A DNA stretch of 47,326 nucleotides, taken from the IMG/VR virus record IMGVR_UViG_3300030331_001567, positions 1 through 47,326 of that record; one strand, given 5' to 3'. This document shows, one piece after another, positions 96-44,778 of this stretch. Source of the stretch: a virus. Positions within the stretch are counted from its first letter, which is position 1. Every line of letters begins with the position of its first letter. The notes beneath the pieces were generated by a model that saw only the letters and a list, made by a program, of their open reading frames with translations, was not told the DNA's origin and searched no databases. Made by a program: the position numbers and the translations under genes.

Positions 96-542
96 ATGAA
101 CAAAATAATAATTACAATTTTACTATGCTTTAATTATGTTAGCGCACAAACCTTATGCGACTCTCTATCTTTTAGTGTAGAAACAAGTTCAGCACTAGCG
201 GTTGTAGGTGTAAACAGTTCTTCAGATAGTACTAATTTTATGTGGGGCGTTTGTGATAACAGCATGTGTTATTCAGCAAGTGGTGATACTGCATATTTCT
301 TTTTAGTTAACCCGTTAGACACTGTAAAAGTATGTTATGATATTTCACCTCAATGGTCATGTACTGAGTGTCACTACGTTATATTTAACGGTTTTACGTG
401 GCAATTACTTGATCTTACTACACATGTTAATGAAGTAAAACCTCAACTACATAATAATAAAATATACGACTTATTAGGAAGAGAATTAAAAAGTATACCT
501 AAAGGTAAGTTATATATTAAAAATGGTAGAATATATAAATAG
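96..542 (+). CDS. Exported Cys-rich protein with T9SS-like C-terminal sorting tail
   Basis: 148 residues. The N-terminus is a signal peptide (MNKIIITILLCFNYVSA, cleavage probably before Gln18). The body is Ser/Thr-rich with several Cys and short alternating hydrophobic stretches, suggesting a small beta-sandwich; a CHYVIFNGFTWQLLD segment resembles modules of secreted Bacteroidota proteins. The last ~35 residues (KIYDLLGRELKSIPKGKLYI, then KNGRIYK) have the layout of type A T9SS sorting domains: a DLLGR motif, a Gly/Pro turn and a basic end. In such hosts the tail directs cargo across the outer membrane, usually with tail removal and surface attachment. It is the first gene of the window and could be a surface-modifying or superinfection factor. 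The function of the body is unknown. Confidence 0.72.
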   Translation: MNKIIITILLCFNYVSAQTLCDSLSFSVETSSALAVVGVNSSSDSTNFMWGVCDNSMCYSASGDTAYFFLVNPLDTVKVCYDISPQWSCTECHYVIFNGFTWQLLDLTTHVNEVKPQLHNNKIYDLLGRELKSIPKGKLYIKNGRIYK

Positions 543-3065: not shown

Positions 3066-3309
3066 TAGATATATAATAGTAGATAAAATAAAAACAAAGC
3101 CTAAAAAGGTTGCTGGTTTAATTATGACAGATGATACTGATGTTGACAATAGGTATTTAAAAGCAAAAATAATATCGTGTGGTAATTTAGTTGAAGGATT
3201 AAAAGATGGTGACACGATATATTACGATAAACACGCTGGACACGATATATCTTTTAAAGATACTCTTTATAGAGTTATTCGCGATATAGATGTTGTTCTA
3301 GTAGATTAA
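3052..3309 (+). CDS. groES: Phage-encoded co-chaperonin GroES
   Basis: 85 residues, slightly shorter than the usual ~97. GroES-type lid of the GroEL chamber. Residues 2-12 match the first barrel strand (AINRYIIVDKI). The mobile loop that contacts GroEL is visible around residues 14-31, with the hydrophobic tip GLIM in place of the usual GGIVL. A GDTIYYDK strand corresponds to the GDIVIF strand of cellular GroES, and the end (YRVIRDIDVVLVD) matches the closing strand. Translation starts inside the end of groEL, so the two are coupled. The loop tip change may match changes in the phage GroEL. Identification is by motif order and gene context. Confidence 0.92.
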   Translation: MKAINRYIIVDKIKTKPKKVAGLIMTDDTDVDNRYLKAKIISCGNLVEGLKDGDTIYYDKHAGHDISFKDTLYRVIRDIDVVLVD

Positions 3310-5203: not shown

Positions 5204-5590
5204 ATGTTAGATAAAATATTTGGAGGTGGCGCGGCTGACCTCGTTAAAAATGTAGGTGGAGTTATAGATAACTTACACACATCAAAAGAAGAAAAATTAG
5301 AAGCAGAAAAACAAATTAAAGACATGATAATGGGTTACGAAGCACAAATGCAAAAAGAAGTAACCAACAGATGGAACGTTGATATGAGCTCTGATTCATG
5401 GCTTAGTAAAAATATAAGACCTTTAGTGCTTATATTTCTAGTAGTATCAACAGTGTTAATGATATTTATTGATGCTGGCGTTATTGCTTTTGAAGTAAAA
5501 GATACTTGGGTAGACTTATTACAACTAGTATTAATAACCGTGATCGGTGCTTATTTTGGCGGTAGATCACTAGAAAAAGTAAAAAAATAA
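5204..5590 (+). CDS. Three-TM holin-like protein (GTA holin type)
   Basis: 128 residues. The first 60 residues form an amphipathic, charged helical region; NRWNVDMSSDSWLSKNIRPL then leads into hydrophobic segments (LVLIFLVVSTVLMIFIDAGV and LLQLVLITVIGAYFGG). The SDSWLSKNIRP...AYFGGRSLEK pattern is characteristic of the 3-TM holin family described for gene transfer agents and many phages. Holins open the inner membrane at the end of infection so that lytic enzymes reach the cell wall. The C-terminus is basic (RSLEKVKK), consistent with a cytoplasmic tail. No endolysin was recognised beside it. Assignment is by motif pattern. Confidence 0.8.
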   Translation: MLDKIFGGGAADLVKNVGGVIDNLHTSKEEKLEAEKQIKDMIMGYEAQMQKEVTNRWNVDMSSDSWLSKNIRPLVLIFLVVSTVLMIFIDAGVIAFEVKDTWVDLLQLVLITVIGAYFGGRSLEKVKK

Positions 5591-30326: not shown

Positions 30327-33300
30327 ATGGCGATAAGAACTTATAAAGTTGATGATAAAACCATTAGGGTTAACGATAGAAAGTTTGAAATATTTATACA
30401 AAAGTACCCTGATGCTACTGGTATGGACGGGGAAACGCCAGCGCGTGAAGCTTTTTCTGGAGCTGTGGAGTTTGATAGAAAACAGAAAGTAGCTGAAGAA
30501 GTTAGTGATAAACTTAGTCAAGAAGAAGATACAGCTATAGAGCGGGCTTTTGGTAAAAATGTTTTTACTGATTTTGTTGGAGATATATGGAGAGCAGGAA
30601 AACAAGGTTATTTACAAGGTAGTACTGTAGACGAGTCTTTTGATGTTTTTGCAAAAGGTAAAGATATTTCAGAGCAAGATTTAAGAGACTTTGTAGAAGT
30701 ACAAAAAGAACTACAAAAATATGGGCCTTCTGATGAAATGCGTGAGTATGAAAGAATAAAAGAAGAAGCTGGTGGTGGTGTTTGGGGTTTTATGAAAGGT
30801 ATGGTAATGACAAGAGGTCAAGTTATACCGCAAGTTATAGTTAGCTCTATGGCTAGTTTAGCTACTACTTTAATTGATTCTGACGAGGCTAGAAAAGCAG
30901 CTGGTGCCAGTGCTGTTGTAGGTGCTGCTGCTGGTACAGCAATACCAATACCAGGCGTTGGCACTATAAGTGGTGGTATAGCTGGTGCTTTTGCTGGTGC
31001 TACTGGTTCACTTGAAACAGCTATGACAATGACAGAGCTTTTGCAAGATAAGTTAAACGAACAAGGCCTTGAGTTTAACGAAGAAAATATAAGAGATTTA
31101 TTAGAAAACGAAGATGAGTTTAATAAAGTAAAAACAAAAGCGTTAAACAGAGGTTTAGCTATTGGTGCTGTTGAAGGTTTAACTTTTGGTTTGTCAAGAG
31201 GTGTAGGTTCTAAGCTTATTAGTAAAGGAGCATCAGCGGGTAAGCTAGCAAAAACAACAACAGCTATTGAGGTAACAGGTGGTATGGGTGGTGAGCTTGC
31301 CGGTCAAATAGCTGCTGGTCAAGATATAGATGCCGCAGAAATATTAATGGAAGGTATTGCCGAAGCAAAAGGTGTTGTGAACGTTGCAGATCTTATAAAA
31401 AAACCAACATATATAGTAAATGGTGAAACTAGAAAAAACGGTAGAAAAGAAATACTTAGAATATTAAACGATGTTGAGTCTGGAAAATTAGAAGCCAGAG
31501 ATATAGCTAATATAAAAATGAAGGCTACTAATGATCAAAACTTACAAGCTAGAATAGAAAAAGTTTTAGGTAATGCAGAGCTTGAAACACAAATAGATGA
31601 AAGAGTATCTGGTGATGATAGAAAAAAGTTAGTTGATTTAGAAAATCAAAAGAAACGAGCAGAATCTGATGTTAATAAAAAAGGTATATTTAAAAAGCCT
31701 GGCTCTCAAGGTAGATTAGATAATCTCAACGCACAGATAGAAGAAATAATGAACAAGTATGAAGGTGTTGACATTACAGATACAGATGTTCAAGCTAGGA
31801 AAAAATTAGCAGAAGATGTAAGAAGTATAAAACTAGATGCTACAAAAAAGTTTGCAAAAGTATCTAGTGAGCAATTAGGTTTTGATCCTTTTTCAAGTTT
31901 TAGAAGTAACGATGATTTTGTAAGTAGTTATGTTGAAAGATCTATGGCTGGTTTAGATATATCTAACATGACAGATGAACAAATAAACGCTCAAGCAAAT
32001 GAATTTGCTAATGATGCTAATAATGCTGATGCTACAATTATAGATACTCCAGATGGTAATAAAGCTATAATGATAAATGAAGAAATAGCTTATAAATATG
32101 GAGCTTTAGAAGCTGGTTCTCACGAAGTGTTACATGGTGTATTAAGAGGTTCGTTTGCTAAAATGGATGATGCTACAAAAGCACCTATTATTAAAGATTT
32201 TAAAGCTGCTATTCAAAAAGACTTAGGCGCAAATGTTGTTACACAAATAGAAAACAGATTAAAAACTGCTTATGGTATGACTGATGAGCAGATAGGTGTT
32301 TCAGAGGAATATTTTACAGCATTGTCAGATATTATTAACGATAAAAACAATCCTATAACTTTTGAAAAAAACAAAGGATTTTTTGGTAGTATAAAAGATA
32401 AAGTAGCAAGTGTATTTAATAGAAATACGCCTTACAAACAATTAACAGTAAGTACCGGTCAAGATGCTTATAACTTTATAAAAGAATATAGTAAAAGCGT
32501 TAAAGAAGGTAAACTTAGTGAAGCTATGGTTGCATTTGCAGAAGGTAAACCTCAACCAACTACTCAGCCAACAGCTCAACCTACAGCCCAACCAACTGCT
32601 AAACCTGTAGAGGTTTATGAAACAACAAGTGCTGATGGCGCCCCTGTTACAGTTGAGGTTAAAACAGAAACAGACGGAGTTAGAAACTTTGTTGCAAAAA
32701 CTGAAGGTAAGCCAGACCAAACTTTTGGTTTAACTGCAAAATCTAAAAGAAAAACTAAAGATTTTATAAAAACAGCATTAGGTACTAAAGAAGCTGTTAC
32801 GTTAAAAACTAAACCAGCGGCTAAACCTGGTAAATTTTCTAAAACAAGTCCAAGAGCGCAAGAGTTTTTAAATCTTACAAAAGAAGGTATATTAACTAAT
32901 GAAGGTTTAGTCGATATAGTAAACTCTAAACAATCGTCACAAGAAGATAAATTTGCAGCTGTAGAAGCTATAATAGAAAATAATTTTCCTGTAATTAGTA
33001 AATCTTTAAAGTTTAATCCAACTGGTGATATAACAATGGCATCAGTAAAAGAAGCTGTATCTGAACAAATGTTAGGTATATTTCCTAAAGTTACACTACC
33101 AAACGGTAATGTTGTAAATCGTAAAGGCAAACGTTTACTTGATACTTATAATAAAACACAAAAACTGACAACTTTTTTAAATGCTACTTTAAGTCCTAGA
33201 CAAGCTGAAATATTTACTAGAGCTACAGCTTTAGATGCTGATACTAAAGGAATAAGTATAGATGCTAAAGAAACAAGACAAATAGCCGATACTCAAGAAA

Positions 33301-36300
33301 CTACAGCTAAAGCGCCTGATAAAGCTAGAAGAAAAACAAATGTTCTTAAAATTGGTAAAATAGAACAAAAAGCAAGCGCTATAAAAAAACTAGTTAAAGT
33401 TAAGCCTGGTGATACTTTTAAAGAAGTTAGCGATAATAATACTGGTAAAGTAGCACAAGAAATATTTGATGTACCTGGTGATAAAATTACTGACCCAAAG
33501 AAAAACTTAACTTATGCTAAAAAAATAGTTAATGGTATACCAGAAGCATCTGAAGCTGGTAACATACAGTCTTTTTATAATAACGAACAAACCGTTGATA
33601 AACTTGTAAAAATACTTCCAATAGAAAACGTTACAGCTAGTAATGCTGATATAAGTGAGATAGGAGAAAATATAGATGTTGATGTAGAAGTTTTAGGTAG
33701 AAGTATAGGTTTAAATAATAGGATGTTAAATTACTTTTATAACAAAACAAATAAAAGATCAAAAGGTAAAACATCACAGCCGTTTATATGGGAGTTAAAA
33801 CCACAGTTTAGAACACCATCTTCAGAAGTTATAAAACAAGTGCAGCAAGATCTTGGTATAACGCCTCGTGGTGAATTAAACAATTATGATAGAAATATAG
33901 GCCAGCTTTTAAAAGGCATAGCTAAATTTCAAGCACAGCAAGTTTCTTTGTCTACAGCACAAAGAATTTTAACAGAACAAAAAGCACCTAAAAAACAAAT
34001 AGCTAGCGTAACAGCTGCGCAAAGTAAAGCTGCTTTTAGTAAAACATACAAGCTAGGTGACTTGTCAAAAACTGAAGGTGTTAAAATGGCTCCGTTAATG
34101 TATTTTCAAAAAGAAGGCAAAGACAAGCTTTATACTTCACAAAGAGATATGGACGCTATGTATACTGTAGATGGAAAACAAACAGGTGAAACATATCAGC
34201 AAGCTTACAGTAGAATATTAAATAATTTTTTAAAAACAAACCCACAGTTTAGAAATTTATTTAGAAGAACAACAACAGGTGGTGTTACAGGTGGTATATT
34301 TTTAACAACACCTGAGTTTAATAAAGTTATTGATTCAGCAAATGTTGAACAAAAAACATTTTTTAGACAAGCTTATAATAAATCTAAAAGACTTACAAAA
34401 GATTTTGTAAACTTATCAAAAAAAGATACTTTTATTAAGTCTGAAAATAAAAAATTACCTTTATTAGAAGAAATTTTTATAGCTATAGAAAAACACTTAA
34501 AACAAAATCCAAAAGATATAGGTTTTTTTGAAGATGTATTAAAAGACACTGGAAAACAACAAGATACATTTACTAGAGTTTTAGCACCAATAAAAGCTTT
34601 TCCTGTTAATAAAAATCGTAAACCAATTTACAACCAAGAAGTTGTTGAAGAGCATACTAATCCACAAAATGAAATAGGTAAATCTTCGTTAGCAGCGGCT
34701 AAAATAGGTGAGTTTAAAAAACAATGGAAAGCTATAGGTAAGTCTTACATGCAAATGTCTTTGTTAAAAACAGATGATAAAAAAATAAACGATGCTGGAT
34801 ATCAAACTTCTATGCCAGAAGTTTATTATGAAAAAATACTGCCTAGACTTTTAAACGGTGATTTAAACTTACCTGATGGTTTGGTTTCTGTTGTAAGACT
34901 TGCTGAATCTGGTGTAAATTTAAATAATTATTATTTAATAAACGAAAAACAAACAATAGCAGAGTTTTTTGGTGTTGATGGTATTAAAAATATTAAAAAA
35001 GCAAATGAGCTAGTTACAAAGCAGTTAACAGGAGAAGTTACAGCTAATTTTTCAAAAAGTATTTCTAAAGTTAATTTTAAAGAAAATACTGATAGTTTTA
35101 AAACACTAGATAAAGCTGTATTATTTTCAAGATCTACTCAAAACGAAACAAGAGGTATTACAGTTTTAGATTTTGATGATACATTAGCAACAACAGAATC
35201 ACTAGTTAAATATACTACACCAGATGGTAAAACAGGTACTTTAAACGCAGAACAGTTTGCTAGTACATATGAAGATTTACAAGACCAAGGTTATACATTT
35301 GATTTTTCTGATTTTAATAAAGTTGTAAAAGGTAAATTAGCGCCACTATTTAATAAAGCTATGAAGCTACAAAAAAAGTTTGGCCCTGAAAATATGTTTG
35401 TGTTAACAGCAAGGCCGCCAGCAGCTCAAAAGCCTATATTTGACTTTTTAAAAGCTAATGGCTTAAACATACCTTTAAAAAATATAACAGGTTTAGGTAA
35501 TAGCACAAGTGAAGCTAAAGCGCTTTGGATAGCTGATAAAGTAGCAATAGGTTATAATGATTTTTATTTTGCTGACGACGCTTTACAAAACGTACAAGCT
35601 GTTAAAAATATGTTAGATCAGTTTGATGTTAAATCAAAAGTACAACAAGCTAAAGTTAATTTTAGTAAAACAATGAGCAAAGAATTTAACAACATACTAC
35701 AAGATGTAGTTGGTGTTGATTCAGAGCAAGTGTTTTCAAAAGCTCAAGCAAAATTAAGAGGTAAGAAAACAAAATACCAATCAATAATACCACCTTCTGC
35801 ACAAGACTTTATGGGGTTATTGTATAATTTCGTAGGTAAAGGTACAAAAGGTGAAAAACAAATAGCATTTTTAAAGAAAGCTCTTGTTGATCCTTTTGCT
35901 AGAGGTATAAAAGAATTAAACTCAGCAAAACAAAATACAGCTAGTCAGTACCAAATATTGCTTAAACAGTTTCCTAAAGTTAAAAAGAAACTAAAAAAGA
36001 AAGTGATGCAGTTTTACACTAACGATCACGCTATAAGAGTTTATTTATTTAATAAAGCAGGTTTTGAAATACCAGGTATGTCACAAAAAGATGTAGATGC
36101 TTTAGATAATATTGTAAAAAGTGATCCAGAATTACAAGCTTTTGCAGAGACTTTAGGTGCTATATCAAAAAAAGATGAAGGTTATTATGCACCTAGCGAA
36201 CATTGGATAGCTGAAAGCATAACATCTGATGTTTTAAGTGATGGCTCTCTTGGTGAAGCTAGATCAGTATACTTAACAGAGTTTCTTGAAAATAAAAATC

Positions 36301-37937
36301 AAATATTTTCCGAGCAAAACTTAAATAAAATAGAAGCTGTATATGGCAGTAAGTTTAGAGAAGCTTTAACAGATATTTTATATCGTATGGAAAGCGGTAG
36401 AAGTAGACCTGCTGGTGGTGGTAGATTAATGAATATGTATATGAACTGGACTAACAACTCTGTTGGTGCTATAATGTTCTTTAATATGAGATCTGCAGTG
36501 CTACAGACTATATCTGCTATTAACTATATCAACTGGAGTGATAATAATCCTTTAAAAGCAGCTGCAGCATTTGCTAATCAAAAGCAATACTGGAAAGACT
36601 TTAGCATGATATTTAATTCTGACTTTCTAAAACAAAGACGAGCTGGTAATCAAAGAGGTATTAATGAAGCAGAGTTATCAGCAGCTGTAGCAGGTTCTAG
36701 TAATAAAGCAAAAGCCGCTTTAGCTTGGTTACTTAGAAAAGGATTTTTACCTACACAAATAGCTGATAGTTTTGCAATTGCTAGTGGTGGTGCTACATTT
36801 TATAGAAACAGAGTTAAAGCTTTAATGAAGCAAACGAATCCTAATACTGATGAAAAATACACTGCAAAAGAAGCAGAAGAAAGAGCGTTTTTAGATTTAC
36901 AAGAAACTACAGAAGAGTCACAACAGTCAGCGAGACCAGACATGTTATCACAGCAACAAGCATCTCCACTTGGTAGATTAATATTATCTTTTCAAAATAC
37001 ACCAATGCAGTATGCTAGAATAATGAACAAAGCTGCTAGAGACATAGTTAATGGTAGAGGTGATCTTAAAACAAATGTATCTAAAATATTATATTATGGA
37101 GCTATTCAGGGTGTAATATTTGGAGCTTTACAACAAGCTATATTTGCTTCACTAGGTGAAGAAGAAGAAGAAGATTTTGATAGAAAAAAAGAAAGAATAC
37201 TAAACCAAATGTTTGATTCTGTTATGTCAGGTATTGGTTTTGGTGGTAAAGCAATAAGCACGCTTAAAAACACTACTTTAGAATTTTTAAAACAAAAAGA
37301 CAAAGGTTATACTGCTGATCATGCTTATACTTTGCTACAAGCTCTTAGTTTTTCACCACCTATTGGATCTAAACTACGTAAAATATATCAAGCGATACAA
37401 ACAGATAAATTTAACGAAGGTGTATTTACAGAAAGAGGTTTTACTTTAGACAACCCAATATGGAACGTTATTGGTAATGTAATAGAAGGTACTACTAACT
37501 TACCGCTCGGTAGACTTTCAAACAAACTGTTAAATATTGATAATGCTCTTGACTCTAGTAATGAAACTTATAAACGAATAGCTTTGTTATTAGGTTGGAA
37601 TACTTGGGATTTAGGTATTAGAGATAAAGACATAGAAGGTATAAAGAAAAAAGTAAAACAACAAAATAAAGAAGAAAAAAAGCAAAAAGAAAAAGAAAAT
37701 AATAAGCAAAAAATAGAAGAAAATAAAAAGAAAGATGATGGAAGATGTGCGGCTATAAGCGGAAGCGGTGAAAGATGTAAAAACGATGCTGTTAGTGGTA
37801 GTTTTTGTAGTGTACATGAAGAAGTAAAACAAAGAAAAGATGGTAAAGAAGTTCAATGTAAAAAAATTAAAAACAATGGTAAAAGATGTAAAATGAAAAC
37901 ATCTAACCAGTCTGGTCTTTGTTACTACCATGATTAA
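30327..37937 (+). CDS. Giant multidomain ejection (polyvalent-type) protein
   Basis: 2536 residues, in the T7 gp16 position. Visible parts: helical N-terminus; Gly/Ala-rich hydrophobic stretch (~190-230, AAAGTAIPIPGVGTISGGIA); zincin motif SHEVLHG (His599-Glu600, His603); a PTAQP linker (~745); HAD phosphatase motifs VLDFDDTLA (Asp1615, Asp1617), LTARPPA (Thr1694), a Lys before ALWIADK, and FADDALQNV (Asp1750-1751); a hydrophobic segment near 2255 (GAIQGVIFGALQQAIFA); and two Cys/His knuckles in the last ~65 residues (C-x9-C-x9-C-x2-H and C-x9-C-x10-C-x2-H). No lytic transglycosylase was recognised. This layout fits 'polyvalent proteins' (Iyer, Aravind and colleagues): several effector domains on one chain delivered with phage DNA. 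Confidence 0.75.
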   Translation: MAIRTYKVDDKTIRVNDRKFEIFIQKYPDATGMDGETPAREAFSGAVEFDRKQKVAEEVSDKLSQEEDTAIERAFGKNVFTDFVGDIWRAGKQGYLQGSTVDESFDVFAKGKDISEQDLRDFVEVQKELQKYGPSDEMREYERIKEEAGGGVWGFMKGMVMTRGQVIPQVIVSSMASLATTLIDSDEARKAAGASAVVGAAAGTAIPIPGVGTISGGIAGAFAGATGSLETAMTMTELLQDKLNEQGLEFNEENIRDLLENEDEFNKVKTKALNRGLAIGAVEGLTFGLSRGVGSKLISKGASAGKLAKTTTAIEVTGGMGGELAGQIAAGQDIDAAEILMEGIAEAKGVVNVADLIKKPTYIVNGETRKNGRKEILRILNDVESGKLEARDIANIKMKATNDQNLQARIEKVLGNAELETQIDERVSGDDRKKLVDLENQKKRAESDVNKKGIFKKPGSQGRLDNLNAQIEEIMNKYEGVDITDTDVQARKKLAEDVRSIKLDATKKFAKVSSEQLGFDPFSSFRSNDDFVSSYVERSMAGLDISNMTDEQINAQANEFANDANNADATIIDTPDGNKAIMINEEIAYKYGALEAGSHEVLHGVLRGSFAKMDDATKAPIIKDFKAAIQKDLGANVVTQIENRLKTAYGMTDEQIGVSEEYFTALSDIINDKNNPITFEKNKGFFGSIKDKVASVFNRNTPYKQLTVSTGQDAYNFIKEYSKSVKEGKLSEAMVAFAEGKPQPTTQPTAQPTAQPTAKPVEVYETTSADGAPVTVEVKTETDGVRNFVAKTEGKPDQTFGLTAKSKRKTKDFIKTALGTKEAVTLKTKPAAKPGKFSKTSPRAQEFLNLTKEGILTNEGLVDIVNSKQSSQEDKFAAVEAIIENNFPVISKSLKFNPTGDITMASVKEAVSEQMLGIFPKVTLPNGNVVNRKGKRLLDTYNKTQKLTTFLNATLSPRQAEIFTRATALDADTKGISIDAKETRQIADTQETTAKAPDKARRKTNVLKIGKIEQKASAIKKLVKVKPGDTFKEVSDNNTGKVAQEIFDVPGDKITDPKKNLTYAKKIVNGIPEASEAGNIQSFYNNEQTVDKLVKILPIENVTASNADISEIGENIDVDVEVLGRSIGLNNRMLNYFYNKTNKRSKGKTSQPFIWELKPQFRTPSSEVIKQVQQDLGITPRGELNNYDRNIGQLLKGIAKFQAQQVSLSTAQRILTEQKAPKKQIASVTAAQSKAAFSKTYKLGDLSKTEGVKMAPLMYFQKEGKDKLYTSQRDMDAMYTVDGKQTGETYQQAYSRILNNFLKTNPQFRNLFRRTTTGGVTGGIFLTTPEFNKVIDSANVEQKTFFRQAYNKSKRLTKDFVNLSKKDTFIKSENKKLPLLEEIFIAIEKHLKQNPKDIGFFEDVLKDTGKQQDTFTRVLAPIKAFPVNKNRKPIYNQEVVEEHTNPQNEIGKSSLAAAKIGEFKKQWKAIGKSYMQMSLLKTDDKKINDAGYQTSMPEVYYEKILPRLLNGDLNLPDGLVSVVRLAESGVNLNNYYLINEKQTIAEFFGVDGIKNIKKANELVTKQLTGEVTANFSKSISKVNFKENTDSFKTLDKAVLFSRSTQNETRGITVLDFDDTLATTESLVKYTTPDGKTGTLNAEQFASTYEDLQDQGYTFDFSDFNKVVKGKLAPLFNKAMKLQKKFGPENMFVLTARPPAAQKPIFDFLKANGLNIPLKNITGLGNSTSEAKALWIADKVAIGYNDFYFADDALQNVQAVKNMLDQFDVKSKVQQAKVNFSKTMSKEFNNILQDVVGVDSEQVFSKAQAKLRGKKTKYQSIIPPSAQDFMGLLYNFVGKGTKGEKQIAFLKKALVDPFARGIKELNSAKQNTASQYQILLKQFPKVKKKLKKKVMQFYTNDHAIRVYLFNKAGFEIPGMSQKDVDALDNIVKSDPELQAFAETLGAISKKDEGYYAPSEHWIAESITSDVLSDGSLGEARSVYLTEFLENKNQIFSEQNLNKIEAVYGSKFREALTDILYRMESGRSRPAGGGRLMNMYMNWTNNSVGAIMFFNMRSAVLQTISAINYINWSDNNPLKAAAAFANQKQYWKDFSMIFNSDFLKQRRAGNQRGINEAELSAAVAGSSNKAKAALAWLLRKGFLPTQIADSFAIASGGATFYRNRVKALMKQTNPNTDEKYTAKEAEERAFLDLQETTEESQQSARPDMLSQQQASPLGRLILSFQNTPMQYARIMNKAARDIVNGRGDLKTNVSKILYYGAIQGVIFGALQQAIFASLGEEEEEDFDRKKERILNQMFDSVMSGIGFGGKAISTLKNTTLEFLKQKDKGYTADHAYTLLQALSFSPPIGSKLRKIYQAIQTDKFNEGVFTERGFTLDNPIWNVIGNVIEGTTNLPLGRLSNKLLNIDNALDSSNETYKRIALLLGWNTWDLGIRDKDIEGIKKKVKQQNKEEKKQKEKENNKQKIEENKKKDDGRCAAISGSGERCKNDAVSGSFCSVHEEVKQRKDGKEVQCKKIKNNGKRCKMKTSNQSGLCYYHD

Positions 37938-37971: not shown

Positions 37972-39069
37972 ATGGTGAAGAAATTTATAATATTATTAGC
38001 AACAATTTTAATAGCTTGCTCAGCTCCTAAAAAATGTTGTTCTCAAACGTTTAAAAAAGAAGACTTTGAAGATTTATTAAAGTTTTCTACGTTTTATGCC
38101 GCGGTTAATGGTGGTACATCATTGTCTGATGTTGACGTGTTTTCTGTAGATAATGGTTTATCTATACAAACTATTTCAACTCCTTATGATTACAACTTTA
38201 CCGTAGGTTTACGTAAGATAGGTAGGTTTGGATATGAGAACAAAGCAAATACTTTTTATGATGGAACGGAGTCTAATTACAGTGACGCGGCTACTGTAGG
38301 TAAAGTTAGAGGAGTTGAATATTTATTCGAAGTAGATTACAAAAGACAAGAAGGTGTAGATTATTTAGATCAACATCATTTTATTAGATTTAGTTCTGAT
38401 GACGGTTGTCCTGACGAGTTGTGTGTAAACTTTTTTGCTTTAAAGCTAGAATATCTTGAAGATGGTTTTGCAGATGTAAAATACTTTGAAGCATCAGAAC
38501 GTTATAGACATCGTAAAAATAGAAACTTATCATGGAATATAGGATTAACTCATAGACTTGCAGAGCCTTATGGTTACAACGCTTTAGACGAGTGGCTATT
38601 AAGTAATGGTAATATACATTATACGTATTTAGCGTTACAAGAAGGTTATACTGTAGATGTTTACAATAATCAGTATTATAATCCCGCGGGTGAGGTTGTA
38701 GCAACAAGTGCTGAAGTTTGGGAAGCTGTAGTTATACCACAAGTATTATCTGATTATACAGAAAAAAAAAGAAATGAGTTAAAGAAAACAATACAACACT
38801 CTTTAGTGTTAGGTTTTGATTACTATAAATATAATAAAAACACATGGTTACACGCTTGGGGAAGTTTAATGCCTTGGCATTATGATGATGGTGGTGAGTT
38901 TAGTTATCATAATTATGTTGATGGCCAGTGGTATGATTATTCAGGTGGTTTAATATATGGTATAAAAATAAATAAGCAGTTAGGTTATTTTGTTGAAGGT
39001 AAATATAACAAGTACTGGAACAGAGAGTGGTACGATTTTAAACTAGGAGTTAATTATATAATAAGATAA
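37972..39069 (+). CDS. Exported outer-membrane-like protein
   Basis: 365 residues. Hydrophobic N-terminus MVKKFIILLATILIACSAPK ends in a lipobox-like LIAC (Cys16) and a second possible signal-peptidase site before Gln25 (KKCCS/Q). The body alternates strands with aromatic residues (FTVGLRKIGRFGYENKANTF; HSLVLGFDYYKYNKNTWLHA) and ends with GVNYIIR, as outer-membrane beta-barrels often do. A helical section lies near residues 240-275. I have seen closely patterned proteins in other marine flavophages. Possible roles: receptor masking, superinfection exclusion or lysis support. It heads the envelope cluster and overlaps the next start by one base. Confidence 0.68.
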   Translation: MVKKFIILLATILIACSAPKKCCSQTFKKEDFEDLLKFSTFYAAVNGGTSLSDVDVFSVDNGLSIQTISTPYDYNFTVGLRKIGRFGYENKANTFYDGTESNYSDAATVGKVRGVEYLFEVDYKRQEGVDYLDQHHFIRFSSDDGCPDELCVNFFALKLEYLEDGFADVKYFEASERYRHRKNRNLSWNIGLTHRLAEPYGYNALDEWLLSNGNIHYTYLALQEGYTVDVYNNQYYNPAGEVVATSAEVWEAVVIPQVLSDYTEKKRNELKKTIQHSLVLGFDYYKYNKNTWLHAWGSLMPWHYDDGGEFSYHNYVDGQWYDYSGGLIYGIKINKQLGYFVEGKYNKYWNREWYDFKLGVNYIIR

Positions 39070-39380
39070 TGGCAAAAGAATTAAATGAAGATACAGCGTT
39101 TAAGTTAAGTATAAAAACTATAATAGGTGCTGGCTTTGCAATAGCAACTCTAGCCGGTATGTGGTTTACATTACAAGCAGATATAGCAGAAGCTAAAGAG
39201 TTACCTGCTAATGAATGGAATGAAGAGTGGATAGAAAAATTACCACCAGATGAAGTTACACGTATGGAGTTTCAAATGAAAGACGAAATGATACGTAATA
39301 CTATTATGTCTACACAAGAAGATGTTAAAGAAATAAAAGAAACATTAGAAAAAATAGAAGACAAGCTTTATGATAGATAA
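39069..39380 (+). CDS. Single-TM coiled-coil membrane protein (spanin/lysis candidate)
   Basis: 103 residues: a cytoplasmic N-terminus (MAKELNEDTAFKLSIKT), one membrane segment (IIGAGFAIATLAGMWFTLQA, ~19-38), and a long charged C-terminal coiled coil (TQEDVKEIKETLEKIEDKLY). This topology resembles inner-membrane spanin subunits (Rz-like), but could also be a membrane anchor of unknown role. A partner lipoprotein of Rz1 type is not evident, although the next gene overlaps by 11 bases and encodes an exported protein. The holin-like gene is far upstream. Confidence 0.55.
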   Translation: MAKELNEDTAFKLSIKTIIGAGFAIATLAGMWFTLQADIAEAKELPANEWNEEWIEKLPPDEVTRMEFQMKDEMIRNTIMSTQEDVKEIKETLEKIEDKLYDR

Positions 39381-39729
39381 TATTAACTGGCAAACAAGGG
39401 TTATGTACATGTTAATAATTATTATCATGTTATCTTGTAGTGTCTGTTTTAGTCAAATAAAAGTAATACAGTTTAATGCTAGTTGGAATAAAGTTAACGA
39501 TGTACCATGGGTTATGAGTTTAAAAGACTGTAAGACTATAAGTTACACAGATGTTGCTAGTGATAAAAAAGCACAAACAAAATACAAGATAGCATCTGTA
39601 CCTACGATAATAATATTTAAAGATGGTGAAGAAGTTGCTAGGTTTCAAGCTGATCTTAGCTTTACATTAGTAGCAACAAAAGAAGAAGTACAAGAAGAAA
39701 TAGATAACATAATAATGAGTGACTTTTAA
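39370..39729 (+). CDS. Exported thioredoxin-like protein lacking CXXC
   Basis: 119 residues from 39370; an internal ATG at 39406 would give MYMLIIIIMLSCSVCFSQ as N-terminus. Hydrophobic signal peptide with likely cleavage before Gln29 (CFS/Q). The mature part follows the thioredoxin fold: IKVIQFNASWNKVNDVPW, then YKIASVPTIIIFKDGEEVAR with the cis-proline loop (SVPT). The WCxxC active-site region reads ASWNKVND, so there is no redox Cys pair. It may act as a binding or structural module in the periplasm, or may be an inactive decoy. It overlaps the preceding coiled-coil gene by 11 bases. Confidence 0.72.
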   Translation: MIDNINWQTRVMYMLIIIIMLSCSVCFSQIKVIQFNASWNKVNDVPWVMSLKDCKTISYTDVASDKKAQTKYKIASVPTIIIFKDGEEVARFQADLSFTLVATKEEVQEEIDNIIMSDF

Positions 39730-39731
39730 TT

Positions 39732-40181
39732 ATGCCAGGATCAACTAGACAAAATAAAATGTTTGAACCATCACCTGTAAAAAATTACATACAGGAAGGT
39801 AATCCATTTGCTGTGACTAGTTGTGGTAGACGTAGAAATTTAGGGCAAAAGCTTTTTGAAATAGACTCACCATTAGAAAAAAGAAAAAGAAAAAGAAAAA
39901 GAAAACCAGATGTTCGTAGAACTATAGGTCCTGGTAAAAACTTTAATAAAGCTAAGTCTACAGGTACTGGTGGTAAAGCTGGTGGTGGTATGACTGAAAA
40001 AGGTGTAAAAGAATATAGACGTAAAAACCCTGGTAGTAAATTAAAAACAGCAGTAACTACACCACCATCAAGATTAAAACCAGGTAGTAAAGCTGCTAAA
40101 CGTAGAAAATCATTTTGCGCTAGATCAAGAGGTTGGAAAAGTAAAAGAGGTCTAGCTGCTAGAAGAAGGTGGAACTGTTAA
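39732..40181 (+). CDS. Basic protein with KRRKSFCAR-type C-terminal motif
   Basis: 149 residues, very basic. N-terminus has MFEPSPVKNYIQEGNPFAV, with SPVK somewhat like the SPM end of the SGNKPS module. A KRKRKRKRKPD run lies at ~50-60. The C-terminus, KAAKRRKSFCARSRGWKSKR, then AARRRWNC, matches a small motif I have seen in basic proteins from marine phages and some giant viruses. Two Cys and the C-terminal Cys could form a disulfide or metal site. A DNA- or capsid-binding role is inferred only from charge. First gene of the basic block. Confidence 0.62.
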   Translation: MPGSTRQNKMFEPSPVKNYIQEGNPFAVTSCGRRRNLGQKLFEIDSPLEKRKRKRKRKPDVRRTIGPGKNFNKAKSTGTGGKAGGGMTEKGVKEYRRKNPGSKLKTAVTTPPSRLKPGSKAAKRRKSFCARSRGWKSKRGLAARRRWNC

Positions 40182-40191
40182 AAAAAATAAT

Positions 40192-40527
40192 ATGGCTGAT
40201 TTAAGAAAAAAAATGGGATTTGGCCCTAGAGCGGCAAAAGGTAGTGACGATCAAAGTTTTGAACTAGCTAAATCAAGATATGAAATGGGTATGTATAAAA
40301 ATGATCCTACTGAAATGAGTGCTTTGCCAATGCAAAAAATGAAAAGCTCTGCGCTTAAAAAAATATCTGCAGCTTGTAAAACCGCTGCTAAACGTAAGTT
40401 TAAAGTATGGCCTAGTGCTTATGCTTCTGGCTGGGGCGTAAGATGTACTAAAGCTGGTGGTCCAAGTAATTTTGGTGGAGGTAAAAAGAAAAGCAAGTTT
40501 GGCGGTAAAAAAAGAAAAAGAAAATAA
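40192..40527 (+). CDS. Basic protein with WPSAYASG motif
   Basis: 111 residues. Residues 57-90 contain KISAACKTAAKRKFKVWPSA, then YASGWGVRCTKAGG, a small conserved motif found in basic proteins of marine phages and giant viruses. The C-terminus is Gly/Lys-rich and disordered (GGGKKKSKFGGKKRKRK). The Cys residues of the motif may be structural. Role unknown; likely nucleic-acid or capsid binding by charge. Starts after a run of A residues and TAATATG; the following gene starts one base after its stop. Confidence 0.65.
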   Translation: MADLRKKMGFGPRAAKGSDDQSFELAKSRYEMGMYKNDPTEMSALPMQKMKSSALKKISAACKTAAKRKFKVWPSAYASGWGVRCTKAGGPSNFGGGKKKSKFGGKKRKRK

Positions 40528-40528
40528 T

Positions 40529-40876
40529 ATGTTTTTTAAGTTAAAGAATAGCGAAATTAAAAAAATTGTTAAGCAATTAAAAAAATCTGTTAAATCACAT
40601 GCTGCTCAAGCCAAAACTTTAGAAAGCGCTTTACCTAAACGTATGGGTAAGTTTCAAGAGTCTGATGCTCCAGATGCTAAAGGTAAGTTTAAAAATTTAT
40701 CTGCTTCAGCTTTAGCTACTTGGATGATTAAATCTCGTAAAGGTAATTTATCTAAAATTATTAGTAGCTTAAATCAACAAGTAGTTTTTAGAAGAAACAA
40801 AGATCCTAAGTATGCTGCTAAAATGCGTAGAACTATGGATATAGTTAGAAAACGTTTAGGTAAAAAGAAAAAATGA
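40529..40876 (+). CDS. Basic helical protein
   Basis: 115 residues, with start chosen at MFFKLKNSEIKK, one base after the previous stop; a longer reading from 40457 would add 24 residues overlapping that gene and is less likely. Basic helices are seen (IKKIVKQLKKSVKSHAAQAK; AAKMRRTMDIVRKRLGKKKK) around a small alpha region with FKNLSASALATWMIKSRKGN. No motif or membrane segment was recognised. The C-terminus overlaps the next start by four bases (ATGA). Confidence 0.6.
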   Translation: MFFKLKNSEIKKIVKQLKKSVKSHAAQAKTLESALPKRMGKFQESDAPDAKGKFKNLSASALATWMIKSRKGNLSKIISSLNQQVVFRRNKDPKYAAKMRRTMDIVRKRLGKKKK

Positions 40877-41331
40877 GTAAAGCTTACAGAGGTGTTTTAA
40901 AAGCTAGAATAAATAAAATTTATGGCGGCGATGTAACTGTGTCTAAATGCAGAAAACTTAAAGCAAGACCTAAAGCTACGCCTAGAGACAAACAATTATG
41001 TAATTGGTTTATAAATATGCAAACAAACAGACCTAGCCCTTTTAACAAACGTAAAGATCCATTAGTTGGCACAGGTAAAAAGCCTAAAGGCAGTGGAAGG
41101 CGTTTATACACAGATGAAAATCCAAAAGATACTGTACGTATCAAGTTTGCTACGCCAGCAGACGCTAGGGCAACCGTAGCTAAAGTAAAAAAAATAAACA
41201 AGCCTTATGCACGTAAAATACAAATATTGACTGTGGGAGAGCAGAGAGCAAAAGTAATGAAAAAAACACAAGTAGCAGCAATATTTAAACGTGGTAAAGA
41301 GGCAATAAGAAAAGCAAGAAAAAATGTTTAA
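40873..41331 (+). CDS. Basic protein of unknown function
   Basis: 152 residues, basic, without signal peptide. Contains CRKLKARPKATPRDKQLCNW with two Cys, a Lys/Arg/Gly linker (KDPLVGTGKKPKGSGRRLYT), and a small alpha/beta C-terminal half (DTVRIKFATPADARATVAKV; ARKIQILTVGEQRAKVM). The strand-helix-strand layout may be an RRM- or ferredoxin-like fold, but no family was recognised. Starts in the overlap with the previous gene and ends in an 8-base overlap with the PAP2 gene. Confidence 0.58.
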   Translation: MSKAYRGVLKARINKIYGGDVTVSKCRKLKARPKATPRDKQLCNWFINMQTNRPSPFNKRKDPLVGTGKKPKGSGRRLYTDENPKDTVRIKFATPADARATVAKVKKINKPYARKIQILTVGEQRAKVMKKTQVAAIFKRGKEAIRKARKNV

Positions 41332-41854
41332 AGATTTTGATAAAAAGCCGTTTAAAAAAAAGAAACCACCAGTTGATAGTGGTTATACTACGCGTACAGA
41401 AATAAACGAGCTTAAAAAAATACCTTTACGAAAAGATTTTGTAAAAAAGTTTGATAATCAAGAAAAAGCTTTTAAAGACACCGCTGAAAGAGAAGGTATA
41501 AAAGATTATGATAAAAAAATTGCTGCTAAGCTTATAAAAGATTCTGCGCCTGTGATATTAGAAATAAAGAGATATCACGATAGACCTAGGCCTTACGAAC
41601 TAGATAAATCAATGGCTCATTATAAATTGAAGTCTATGGAAACTCCTTCGTATCCATCAGGACACTCTGTTCAAGGTATGTTAATAGGTAGAGTGTTAAG
41701 CGATAAGTATCCTAGATCAAGAAAAGGTTTTATGGCTACAGCAAGAAATATATCTTATAGTCGTAGAGTTGCCCGCGCTCACTATAAGTCTGACAGCAAG
41801 ATGGGCGAAGAATTAGGTAACTCAATGTATGAACATATAAAAAACAAAATTTAA
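41324..41854 (+). CDS. PAP2-family phosphatase
   Basis: 176 residues, soluble and basic, no signal peptide or membrane segments. It has a complete PAP2 signature, K-x6-RP, then PSGH, then SR-x5-H-x3-D: Lys82/Arg89/Pro90 (KRYHDRPRP), Pro111-His114 (PSGH), Ser146-Arg147 with His153 and Asp157 (SRRVARAHYKSD). Spacings are 20 and 31 residues, within the family range. His153 is the expected nucleophile and His114 the acid. PAP2 enzymes remove phosphate from lipid phosphates, nucleotides or small esters; with no membrane part this one resembles soluble acid phosphatases or haloperoxidase-fold enzymes. Overlaps the previous gene by eight bases in the basic block. Substrate unknown. Confidence 0.85.
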   Translation: MFKDFDKKPFKKKKPPVDSGYTTRTEINELKKIPLRKDFVKKFDNQEKAFKDTAEREGIKDYDKKIAAKLIKDSAPVILEIKRYHDRPRPYELDKSMAHYKLKSMETPSYPSGHSVQGMLIGRVLSDKYPRSRKGFMATARNISYSRRVARAHYKSDSKMGEELGNSMYEHIKNKI

Positions 41855-41858
41855 AATC

Positions 41859-42338
41859 ATGAAAAAACCAATGAAAATGAAAAAGGCAGCTCCTGCTAAA
41901 ATGGGACATAAATCTGCTTCTAAAATGAAAAAAGCAGCTACTAAAATGAAAAAAGCACCAACTAAAAAAGCTATAACAGCTAAACAAGAAAGAATGGCTA
42001 AAGCTATATTAGCTAAAGGTAAAAGTAGTATGGCTACACTTAAAAAATCAATGGCTAAGCTTAAAAAAGATGAAAAGTCAGCTATGTCTATGAAGAAAAA
42101 AGGAGCAATGATGATGAAAAAAGCTTCTGCTATGGCTATGAAAACTAAAAAGTCTATGGCTGCAATGAAGAAAAAATCAGCTGCGATGATGAAAAAAATG
42201 GCTGCTGTTAAAATGGGACATAAAAAAGCTCCAACAAGACATACTAGTGGCGAAGGTGTAAACCAGCATCACATAATACAACACCAGTTCGACGGGCCAG
42301 ATCATAAGAACTTCGCTCGAGGCAAAAAACAGAAGTAG
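41859..42338 (+). CDS. Histone H1-like Lys/Ala/Met-rich protein
   Basis: 159 residues. Repeats of KMKKA/AMKKK dominate the sequence (KPMKMKKAAPAKMGHKSASK; KKAATKMKKAPTKKAITAK), with many Met and almost no acidic residues until the C-terminal ~25. GHKKAPTRHTSGEGVNQHHI and a more polar tail follow. Composition matches bacterial H1-like (Hc1-type) and phage DNA-condensing proteins. It may compact phage DNA or bind host nucleoid. Four bases after the PAP2 gene and three bases before the next gene. Confidence 0.7.
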   Translation: MKKPMKMKKAAPAKMGHKSASKMKKAATKMKKAPTKKAITAKQERMAKAILAKGKSSMATLKKSMAKLKKDEKSAMSMKKKGAMMMKKASAMAMKTKKSMAAMKKKSAAMMKKMAAVKMGHKKAPTRHTSGEGVNQHHIIQHQFDGPDHKNFARGKKQK

Positions 42339-42341
42339 TAT

Positions 42342-42623
42342 ATGTTCAAAATGAACAATCCTTTAAAAAAACGTAGTAAGGTCAAAGGTGGAGGTACTAA
42401 AAAAGTATGTCTACCTGCGGCCAAAGTACGTTCTATGAGTAAAGCTGAAAGAGCTAAAGTTGTTCGTGCTAAACGTAAAGCTGCTAAAGGTGGTGGCTAT
42501 AAAAGATCAAGCAAATCATTTGTTAAAGGTGCTCGTAAAAAAGGTGCTACATTACGTGATTGGTTTCAAAAAGAAAACTGGGTACAAGTTGGTAACCCAA
42601 GCAAAAAATGTGGAGAAAAATAA
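42342..42623 (+). CDS. Small basic protein with LRDWFQKENW motif
   Basis: 93 residues. Basic N-terminus (PLKKRSKVKGGGTKKVCLPA), a Lys/Arg-rich helix (SKAERAKVVRAKRKAAKGGG), and a conserved C-terminal motif KKGATLRDWFQKENWVQVG followed by KKCGEK. This arrangement recurs in proteins of marine phages and large algal viruses (reminiscent of the DUF5872-type family; recalled, not searched). The two Cys near the ends may pair. Function is unknown; charge suggests nucleic-acid binding. One base separates it from the next gene. Confidence 0.62.
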   Translation: MFKMNNPLKKRSKVKGGGTKKVCLPAAKVRSMSKAERAKVVRAKRKAAKGGGYKRSSKSFVKGARKKGATLRDWFQKENWVQVGNPSKKCGEK

Positions 42624-42624
42624 A

Positions 42625-44778
42625 ATGAAAAAAATACTACTATTATTATTATTACCAATATTTAGTTTTGCACAAAACTGTGCGCCAACACTAATAGCTA
42701 CTGATACATGTATGTATGGTTATGCTAGAACGTGGGTTGAGTGGCAACCATTAGATAGTGGTTGTGTTATAGCTAATGTTCACAGAGGTACACCGTATAA
42801 CACGTACTCTTGGAACTGGTATGATCAAAATGTTACTAATTATTCTTTTTATAATAATTATAGCCCCGGCGATCCTTTTGCTAGTTCAGAAGGTTTTTGG
42901 ATGGTTTTAGAAATGGCTGACGGTACTTTTACAGATACAATATATGCTAATGAATTTACATGTATTGAAGGTTGTATGGATGCGTCATATGATAATTACA
43001 ATCCATTAGCTAATATACCAGATGTTTGTTTAGCGATACCACCACCTCAAGATGATTGTGAAGATACTACAAAAACATCTATAACTATTGAGTTTGTGCC
43101 AGATACATACGCAGGTGAAACATCTATGCGTATATTAAATCAAGATGATAGTGTTTTATATAATATACCACAAGGATTTTTTGGTAGTGTAGGCACTGGT
43201 AATATGTATACCGAAACAATATGCGTACCAATAGGTGATACAATAGAGTTTATGATATATGACTCTTATGGTGATGGTATATGTGGTAGTTGCTTTGGTG
43301 GCGTTGATGGTTACGCTTTAATTACAGATGAGTGTGGTGATACTATATATAGCTTAACGCCAGGTGATAATTTAAACTTTGGTCATGGTGATACATCAGA
43401 TGTGTTTGTAATGAAAGACTGTAGCTGGATACCTGTTGTTGGTTGTCCAAACCCTGGTTACTTAGAGTTTAATCCTTCTGCTGATATAATGAATCCAGCT
43501 TTATGTATAACGCCTAGAGTTATAGGTTGTATGGATAGCACTATGTTTGATTTTAATGCTAGTGCTAATACACCACTAATGGAAGACACTTGTGGTTATG
43601 TGCTAGAACTTACTGATGGTGGTGGTGATGGTTGGTTAGGTGCTTACGTTGTGGTAAATCAATTAGGTAACTCATATGGACCTTATACTAACATAAGTTC
43701 TTTTGTTGAAACTATAAACTTAGAATTAAAATCAAACCACCCAGTTACAATTAGAGCTTACTCACAAACAAGCTCTGATGCTACTATAGATCAAATAGGT
43801 TTTAGATTAATAAATCCAGAAGGTGTTGTTATAGCTTCAGGTGGTACAAACCCTTGGAGTGACAGAATAATGTTGTTTCCAGATAAATATATAGCTTTGC
43901 CAAACTGTCCTACTATATGTACGCCTTATGTCTACGGTTGTATGGACGTTACAGCTTATAATTACGATAACACTGCAAATACTAGTGACGGTAGTTGTTA
44001 TTATACGCCTGGTTGTACAGATCCACAGTATTTAGAGTATTATACTCAAGGTTATGTAGCTGATTACAATAACGGTGATTGTAAAACAGAAGCTATATGG
44101 GGTTGTACTGACAGTACAGCATTTAACTATGATAGCTTAGCTAACTTAGATAATGGTGGTTGTACACCCGTAATATTAGGTTGTATGCAGCCTTTAGCGT
44201 TTAATTATGATGCAAATGCAAATACCGATGACGGTAGTTGTGTACCTTATATATATGGTTGTATTGATCCAACAATGTTTAACTACGACCCAACTTGTAA
44301 CACTGATGACGGAAGCTGTATACCTTATAGCTATGGTTGTATAGATTCAACTGCTTTTAATTATGATCCAAACGCTAATGCAGACAACGGATCTTGCATT
44401 GAAATAGTACATGGCTGTATGGATCCAAACGCGTATAACTATGATTTAACTGCTAACGTTAATGATACTCTTGCTTGTTTATATGATGCTGGTTGTATTA
44501 CTGGTGCAGGCTTTCCTTATTGGTTAAATGATGAGTGTTATGCCTGGGTAATTGAAGTAGATGAATATTGTTGTGAAAACGAGTGGGATACAATATGCCA
44601 AGCAACATATGATTATTGCGCAGGTACTTGGTCTGGTCCTGTACAAAGCAGATACGTACAAAAGAAACTAATAGCTGTCACTGATTTATTAGGTAGACCA
44701 ACTAAAATAACTAAAAATAAATTACTAATCTACATATATAGTGATGGTAGTGTAGAAAGAAAATTAATAAAAGAATAA
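42625..44778 (+). CDS. Exported repeat protein with T9SS-like sorting tail
   Basis: 717 residues from MKKILLLLLLPIFSFAQ, chosen because it gives a clean signal peptide; a longer reading (42460) adds 55 residues inside the upstream gene and is unlikely. Cleavage probably falls before Gln17 (SFA/Q). About ten copies of a ~20-residue Cys-paired repeat (GCMDPxAYNYDxxANxDDGSC type) alternate with two larger Gly/Asp-rich domains (DSYGDGICGSCFGG; DGGGDGWLGAYVVV). The C-terminus, KKLIAVTDLLGRPTKITKNK, then IYIYSDGSVERKL, matches T9SS sorting tails in Bacteroidota surface proteins. Likely displayed or released outside the host. The repeats also occur in host adhesin-like proteins, so the gene may be host-derived. 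The function is unknown; lying beside tail-fibre genes suggests receptor-related activity. Confidence 0.8.
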   Translation: MKKILLLLLLPIFSFAQNCAPTLIATDTCMYGYARTWVEWQPLDSGCVIANVHRGTPYNTYSWNWYDQNVTNYSFYNNYSPGDPFASSEGFWMVLEMADGTFTDTIYANEFTCIEGCMDASYDNYNPLANIPDVCLAIPPPQDDCEDTTKTSITIEFVPDTYAGETSMRILNQDDSVLYNIPQGFFGSVGTGNMYTETICVPIGDTIEFMIYDSYGDGICGSCFGGVDGYALITDECGDTIYSLTPGDNLNFGHGDTSDVFVMKDCSWIPVVGCPNPGYLEFNPSADIMNPALCITPRVIGCMDSTMFDFNASANTPLMEDTCGYVLELTDGGGDGWLGAYVVVNQLGNSYGPYTNISSFVETINLELKSNHPVTIRAYSQTSSDATIDQIGFRLINPEGVVIASGGTNPWSDRIMLFPDKYIALPNCPTICTPYVYGCMDVTAYNYDNTANTSDGSCYYTPGCTDPQYLEYYTQGYVADYNNGDCKTEAIWGCTDSTAFNYDSLANLDNGGCTPVILGCMQPLAFNYDANANTDDGSCVPYIYGCIDPTMFNYDPTCNTDDGSCIPYSYGCIDSTAFNYDPNANADNGSCIEIVHGCMDPNAYNYDLTANVNDTLACLYDAGCITGAGFPYWLNDECYAWVIEVDEYCCENEWDTICQATYDYCAGTWSGPVQSRYVQKKLIAVTDLLGRPTKITKNKLLIYIYSDGSVERKLIKE
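42970..44477 (+). repeat. Cys-paired GCMD...DDGSC repeat array (coding)
   Basis: About ten copies of a ~20-residue unit, each starting GC[MIT]D and ending in Cys, often DDGSC or DNGSC. Early copies are diverged and separated by two larger domains; the last six (from about 43935) are nearly contiguous, for example GCMQPLAFNYDANANTDDGS. Asn/Asp content suggests calcium binding. Copy number may vary between relatives. Confidence 0.85.

Follow-up and report, generated by a model that had tools for sequence, protein, structure and literature searches.

Does the gene at 42625-44778 of the analyzed stretch (the window, a linear virus record of 47,326 bases) encode a protein that an infected host would export through its type IX secretion system (T9SS), and is such a gene an occasional acquisition or a constant part of the phage? 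The window carries a terminase, a portal and a capsid-type structural protein, together with a weak crAss-muzzle match, and a preliminary description had regarded the gene product as a surface repeat protein with a T9SS-type tail. Our analysis indicates that the product (hereafter the cargo) is probably a phage-encoded T9SS client, exported by the host and belonging to a four-gene envelope module that is kept across divergent flavobacterial phages. The features concerned are listed in Table 1.

Table 1. Features of the cargo, its module partners and a second cargo candidate, with positions in the window.
Feature	Position	Strand	Basis
Main cargo gene, putatively secreted protein of 717 aa with Cys repeats and a short putative sorting tail at the C-terminus	42625..44778	+	sequence, relatives
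Sec signal peptide, residues 1-17, MKKILLLLLLPIFSFAQ	42625..42675	+	sequence; kept in relatives
GC...C repeat 1, residues 116-135	42970..43029	+	repeat count
Beta-sandwich domain 1 (predicted), ~residues 145-265, Gly/Asp-rich	43057..43419	+	AF2 model; weak C2-like match
GC...C repeats 2-3, residues 273-323	43441..43593	+	repeat count
Beta-sandwich domain 2 (predicted), ~residues 320-425, Gly/Asp-rich	43582..43899	+	AF2 model
GC...C repeats 4-10, residues 438-618	43936..44478	+	repeat count; bacterial proteins share repeats
Cys-rich segment C...YWLNDECYAW...YCCENEWDTICQATYDYC preceding tail, residues 623-665	44491..44619	+	alignment: invariant Cys, Trp columns
Short C-terminal sorting tail (putative), 38 residues (680-717)	44662..44775	+	conservation; TIGR04183 tails in orthologs instead
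Module partner: signal peptide and outer-membrane beta-barrel protein (predicted), 365 aa	37972..39069	+	fold model, linkage
Module partner: 103 aa, one N-terminal TM segment, C-terminal coiled-coil-like region	39069..39380	+	sequence, conservation
Module partner: exported thioredoxin-fold protein without CxxC motif	39370..39729	+	domain scans, relatives
Smaller second cargo candidate, 148 aa, signal peptide and different short tail	96..542	+	sequence, relatives

The coordinates and length (717 aa) given in the preliminary description proved exact on re-reading, with the ATG of the cargo ORF at 42625, the end of its stop codon at 44778 and the stop of the upstream gene at 42623. The build described there was also recovered, including a plain signal peptide, two Gly/Asp-rich stretches, both predicted by AlphaFold2 (AF2) to be beta-sandwich domains, and a real DLLGR...YIYSDGSVERKLIKE tail that is strongly kept across cargo relatives. 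For the repeats, put at "about ten", we counted ten GC-x(n)-C units of 20-24 residues each plus one shorter GC...C, while 2000 residue shuffles of the mature protein gave a mean of 1.8 and a maximum of 7, and all 39 Cys are located within the mature part. The AF2 model (43 sequences) has a mean pLDDT of 64.9, with 81-89 for the first beta-sandwich and 69-88 for the second, poorly modeled repeats and three strands in the tail. No match was obtained for the cargo, its tail included, among Pfam, NCBIfam and PHROG models, and a sequence search of the PDB returned nothing useful. A fold search with the cargo model yielded only a weak likeness to a C2 tandem (probability 0.90, TM <=0.20), which was not used to propose calcium or lipid binding.

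A scan of IMG/VR found cargo relatives in 106 stretches, from which 79 loci were kept (best segments 33-95% identical), and the presence of relatives on more than 100 viral contigs bears out the claim that the cargo is phage-encoded. Relatives in GTDB genomes were limited to one distant bacterial contig, and INPHARED held none except one repeat match in a single-cell virus. All sequences of this phage group are metagenomic, and the contigs often break at the cargo repeat gene. A clear signal peptide, judged by hydrophobicity score, is present in 70 of the 73 complete relatives, and of the three exceptions two seem to start at a codon other than ATG and one is a broken ORF. The C-terminal tails fall into two classes, namely a short one, as in the window, and a long one that nearly always carries YPNP; among 51 phage records, 35 have the short tail, 16 have the long tail and none is tailless. 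Nine of the ten long-tailed orthologs scanned exceed the curated cut-offs of both TIGR04183 (27.7-47.6 bits, cut-off 23) and PF18962 (31-52 bits, cut-off 27), the models of the T9SS type A C-terminal domain (CTD), at the same position, and two of the long tails do not reach the TIGR04183 cut-off or have an E-value near 1e-3, yet carry YPNP. The long tail occurs in L006, whose body is 74-77% identical, as well as in L009 and L017, so that close orthologs differ in the tail they use. When tail type was mapped onto a quick-search tree of the barrel proteins encoded by these contigs (92 sequences), at least 13 changes were counted, of which at least 6 are forced by well-supported branches.

The short tail itself is not recognized by the catalogued T9SS models. 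The window cargo stays below the curated cut-offs of TIGR04183 and PF18962, with no match, and has no match above cut-off to the type B CTD (TIGR04131/PF13585) or to type C (NF033708). The type A CTD occupies the same position in the long-tailed orthologs and has repeatedly changed places with the short tail; relative to it, the tail in the window has roughly half the length and lacks both YPNP and the 'sxLpxGvY' region. Since no library model matches and a profile comparison of short with long tails by hhalign was not significant (probability 3.4%), homology between the short and type A tails is not claimed, and a T9SS role of the short tail rests on interchangeability instead. The T9SS tail of the preliminary description stands insofar as the tail appears to behave as a sorting tail, but it is not among the catalogued T9SS domains.

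The preliminary description hinged on similar sorting tails existing elsewhere, and the same short tail was found in 94 of 296 sampled Flavobacteriales genomes, mostly of 0.8-2 Mb, with up to at least 25 copies per genome. In the bacterial proteins fetched, which are otherwise unrelated and many of which have signal peptides, the tail lies 0-2 residues before the stop codon; one of them resembles an extracellular PHA depolymerase, and one chromosomal LRR protein combines the short tail with the same Cys repeats as the cargo. The repeats, which the preliminary description ascribed to surface proteins of marine Bacteroidota, are indeed shared with marine flavobacterial proteins. Flavobacterial surface proteins with GCxD...DGSC repeats (e.g., L244 and L246) share with the cargo the repeats and the short or type A tails, but they are chromosomal and larger and have other domain sets (LRR, for instance). 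Each of the 94 short-tail genomes has at least one T9SS component, namely SprA in 87, GldM in four of the other seven and PorV in the last three. SprA was found in 87 of 94 tail-bearing and 149 of 202 tail-less Flavobacteriales genomes (odds ratio 4.4, p = 9e-5), a comparison that is supportive only and discriminates weakly, because most tail-less genomes also have SprA. The cargo thus combines two properties of a T9SS client, a Sec signal peptide and a conserved domain at the extreme C-terminus that is common to unrelated proteins of T9SS-positive hosts. Together, these observations support a T9SS sorting function of the short tail, which we consider a candidate uncatalogued sorting domain, present in multiple copies in small-genome marine-type Flavobacteriales. 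No match to Pfam or NCBIfam was found for this tail in the bacterial proteins tested, and because current domain libraries miss it, counts of T9SS-secreted proteins in marine flavobacteria with small genomes are probably too low.

The likely hosts of the cargo-bearing phages are flavobacteria, as suggested by the terminase. Among INPHARED records with a related terminase, 86 of 87 are phages of Flavobacterium, Cellulophaga, Tenacibaculum and Maribacter and one is an environmental genome; every cultured phage among those with a related terminase infects a member of the Flavobacteriia. The marine label comes from the preliminary description and the relatives' hosts, not from sample metadata. A search for TIGR04183 tails in seven terminase-related INPHARED records and L150 found none, the cultured relatives covered including Elemovirus, phi13:2, phi38:1, Calle, Gundel and Panino. 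The window also possesses a GroEL gene and a GroES-like neighbor (1503-3065 and 3052-3309), and the same pair is annotated in Manatee Spring phage MW202828.

The cargo gene is found together with three other envelope genes. In 67 of the 79 loci, it lies within 10 kb of the genes for the beta-barrel protein, the one-TM protein and the thioredoxin-fold protein; the barrel gene and the thioredoxin-fold gene are each present in 72 of the 79 loci, and six of the remaining loci have none of the three. The reciprocal linkage test started from the barrel (431 relatives, 80 kept) and found a cargo relative in each of the 47 barrel loci whose downstream sequence extends for 3 kb or more; the 24 barrel loci that lack a cargo all end within 2.9 kb. 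In these loci the tail is present wherever the cargo C-terminus is complete, except in the odd locus L206. Seen from both directions, the linkage marks the cargo as part of the phage core, embedded in an envelope module, and not as an accessory adhesin. Across 50 module-bearing records, the terminase of the window has counterparts at 83-91% identity in 31, at 42-50% in four and at 24-28% in ten, and none in five, a spread that indicates that the module spans divergent phages. The cargo body is more divergent than the barrel, with median identities of 61% and 85%, respectively, at loci whose barrels are at least 80% identical.

One locus, L243 (G122 contig 32, in a flavobacterial genome bin), has the module directly beside an endolysin with PG_binding_1 and Amidase_2 domains. 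It was at first taken for a full-length bacterial cargo homolog and is actually a phage contig in the bin; in the 15 kb read, no gene besides the module matches the window, which suggests that the module has been exchanged between phage lineages. Because of this endolysin neighbor we retain, as an unlikely alternative, a role of the exported cargo in lysis or release, in which it would coat or cross-link the envelope late in infection or stop progeny from sticking to debris. The topology of the one-TM partner is known from lysis accessory proteins, and the holin-like gene that the window has at 5204-5590 frequently lies close to the cargo in relatives. However, domain scans of the four module proteins revealed nothing related to lysis, and an external repeat protein is not obviously needed for lysis. 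As for the thioredoxin-fold partner, a conserved CxxC is absent among 73 relatives, which makes it unlikely to be a disulfide catalyst, and that function for the Cys repeats was rejected.

The barrel partner has a signal peptide and aromatic residues at its C-terminal end, and its model, like that of the cargo of moderate confidence, is a porin-like barrel of ~12 strands (mean pLDDT only 66), for which Foldseek gave a probability of 1.00 to NanC, EstA and NalP. With both a signal peptide and a predicted porin-like fold, the product is taken to be an outer-membrane beta-barrel. No Pfam or NCBIfam family was matched, PorP/SprF and PorV included, nor were relatives found by sequence in the PDB or in INPHARED. 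Type B CTD proteins often adjoin, and depend on, cognate PorP/SprF barrels (PMC9143113, PMC12618676), and the phage could similarly bring its own anchoring step, with a barrel devoted to shuttling or anchoring the cargo. The barrel is always near a T9SS client here, and its porin-like model agrees with such a function. Nevertheless, this appears quite improbable to us, because the barrel matches no PorP/SprF or PorV model and nothing in the PDB by sequence and has ~12 predicted strands versus 14 in PorV/PorP (PMC9143113). Moreover, a single barrel family partners both tail types and is therefore not tail-specific.

It is also very unlikely that the cargo is a virion protein, such as a fiber or decoration, whose repeats were derived from host surface proteins and whose signal peptide and tail are leftovers. 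Such a protein would suit the position of the gene among late structural genes in the late half of the window, where small genes of putative structural function and one that weakly matches tail fibers follow directly, as well as the modular and fast-evolving body, which is often seen in receptor-binding proteins. Leftovers, on the other hand, would hardly be retained by nearly all relatives, in which a type A tail is substituted rather than the tail being lost; the 39 Cys fit an oxidizing compartment, and the cargo is linked to exported partners. Finally, although the repeats and the tail are widespread in marine Flavobacteriales, the notion that the cargo is simply bacterial, with the window derived from host DNA or from a chimeric assembly, is refuted by linkage to phage genes in many independent contigs, as over 100 viral contigs carry the cargo, 45 of 50 tested have a terminase related to that of the window, which itself holds portal, capsid and terminase, and the sole bacterial-bin copy of the whole module sits on a phage contig.

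We thus favor the reading of the cargo as an exported T9SS client. According to established T9SS biology (PMC10202324, PMC12618676), Sec would export the cargo, its cysteines would probably pair in the periplasm, and the host type IX secretion system would recognize the C-terminal tail and carry the protein across the outer membrane, after which it would stay on the flavobacterial cell or be released. That the cargo reaches the surface of infected cells is likely, and there it might remodel the cell. The computation shows the signals, the tail interchange, the module linkage and the likely host group, whereas export and remodeling are inferred. Given a gene fixed in the module of many related phages and provided with entry and exit signals, infected flavobacteria probably display a phage protein. 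The favored role of such a surface coat, made late in infection, would be receptor masking against superinfection or against rebinding of progeny, with adhesion as an alternative; the decoy, adhesin and debris-binding functions proposed in the preliminary description were not directly supported. More tentatively, and with some doubt on our part, the short tail might be an undescribed class of T9SS signal of marine Flavobacteriales with small genomes, and the phages might carry an export-and-anchoring cassette, in which the barrel holds the cargo on the cell as a fixed late takeover of the host surface.

Phage-encoded T9SS cargo is not a new principle. In 2020, Cryophage cargo genes with type A sorting domains were reported, and hijacking of the host system, with superinfection exclusion or competition as the role, was proposed (PMC7468147); in gut crAss-like phages, T9SS sorting-domain proteins were placed near BACON ORFs, upstream of head genes (PMC6949934). 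Like Cryophage, the phages studied here have genes with T9SS sorting tails, which are also type A in the long-tailed cargo orthologs. Unlike the Cryophage cargoes, which are an endoglucanase, a GH39 enzyme and a PA14 protein and vary between strains (PMC7468147), a single Cys-repeat family is involved here, which is fixed in a module and mostly carries an uncatalogued short tail. The gut crAss-like phages likewise belong to Bacteroidota phages with T9SS sorting-domain proteins, but the portions of that report available to us describe neither Cys repeats nor a barrel/TM/thioredoxin module, and those phages are from the gut versus marine here (PMC6949934). Type B systems (PMC9143113, PMC12618676) share with the window the linkage of a T9SS client to an outer-membrane barrel gene, but here the tail is not type B and the barrel matches no PorP/SprF model. 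A search of open-licence papers found none on flavobacterial phages with T9SS cargo or on marine crAss-like phages. In view of the earlier Cryophage and crAss-like reports, what is new is a cargo family that is core and tied to a module in divergent phages of marine flavobacteria, together with a short putative sorting tail absent from the libraries. Use of host type IX secretion would accordingly be a fixed trait of a widespread flavobacterial phage group and not an odd acquisition, and the question of whether infected marine bacteria wear a phage-made coat becomes testable.

The second cargo proposed in the preliminary description, at 96-542, is real, with a signal peptide and a short tail that differs from that of the main cargo (kIYDLLGReLk.ipkGklYIkNG), and its relatives occur in cargo-carrying phages. 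Close relatives (84%) occur in L150 and L151, and L151 shares its contig with cargo L002; more divergent ones are located directly upstream of the main cargo in L014, L055, L056 and L160. The suggested pairing of the two genes in related phages thus recurs, although it is not universal. Of the 296 Flavobacteriales genomes, 25 contain this second tail type, generally in a single copy.

Several other genes close to the module were also recorded. The product of 41324-41854 resembles a PAP2-superfamily phosphatase (PF01569, 33 bits) with KxxxxxxRP / PSGH / SRxxxxxHxxxD motifs, which is unusual for a phage late region and is kept in several relatives. The region between the module and the cargo (39732-42623) contains small, very basic Lys/Arg-rich proteins, one with DUF6321, whose order varies in relatives and which are possibly DNA-condensing or packaged proteins. 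As well, a 2536-aa protein encoded at 30327-37937 has several Cys/His motifs at its end (CAAISGSGERCKNDAVSGSFCSVHE...) and is fast-evolving, with a median identity of 52% in relatives.
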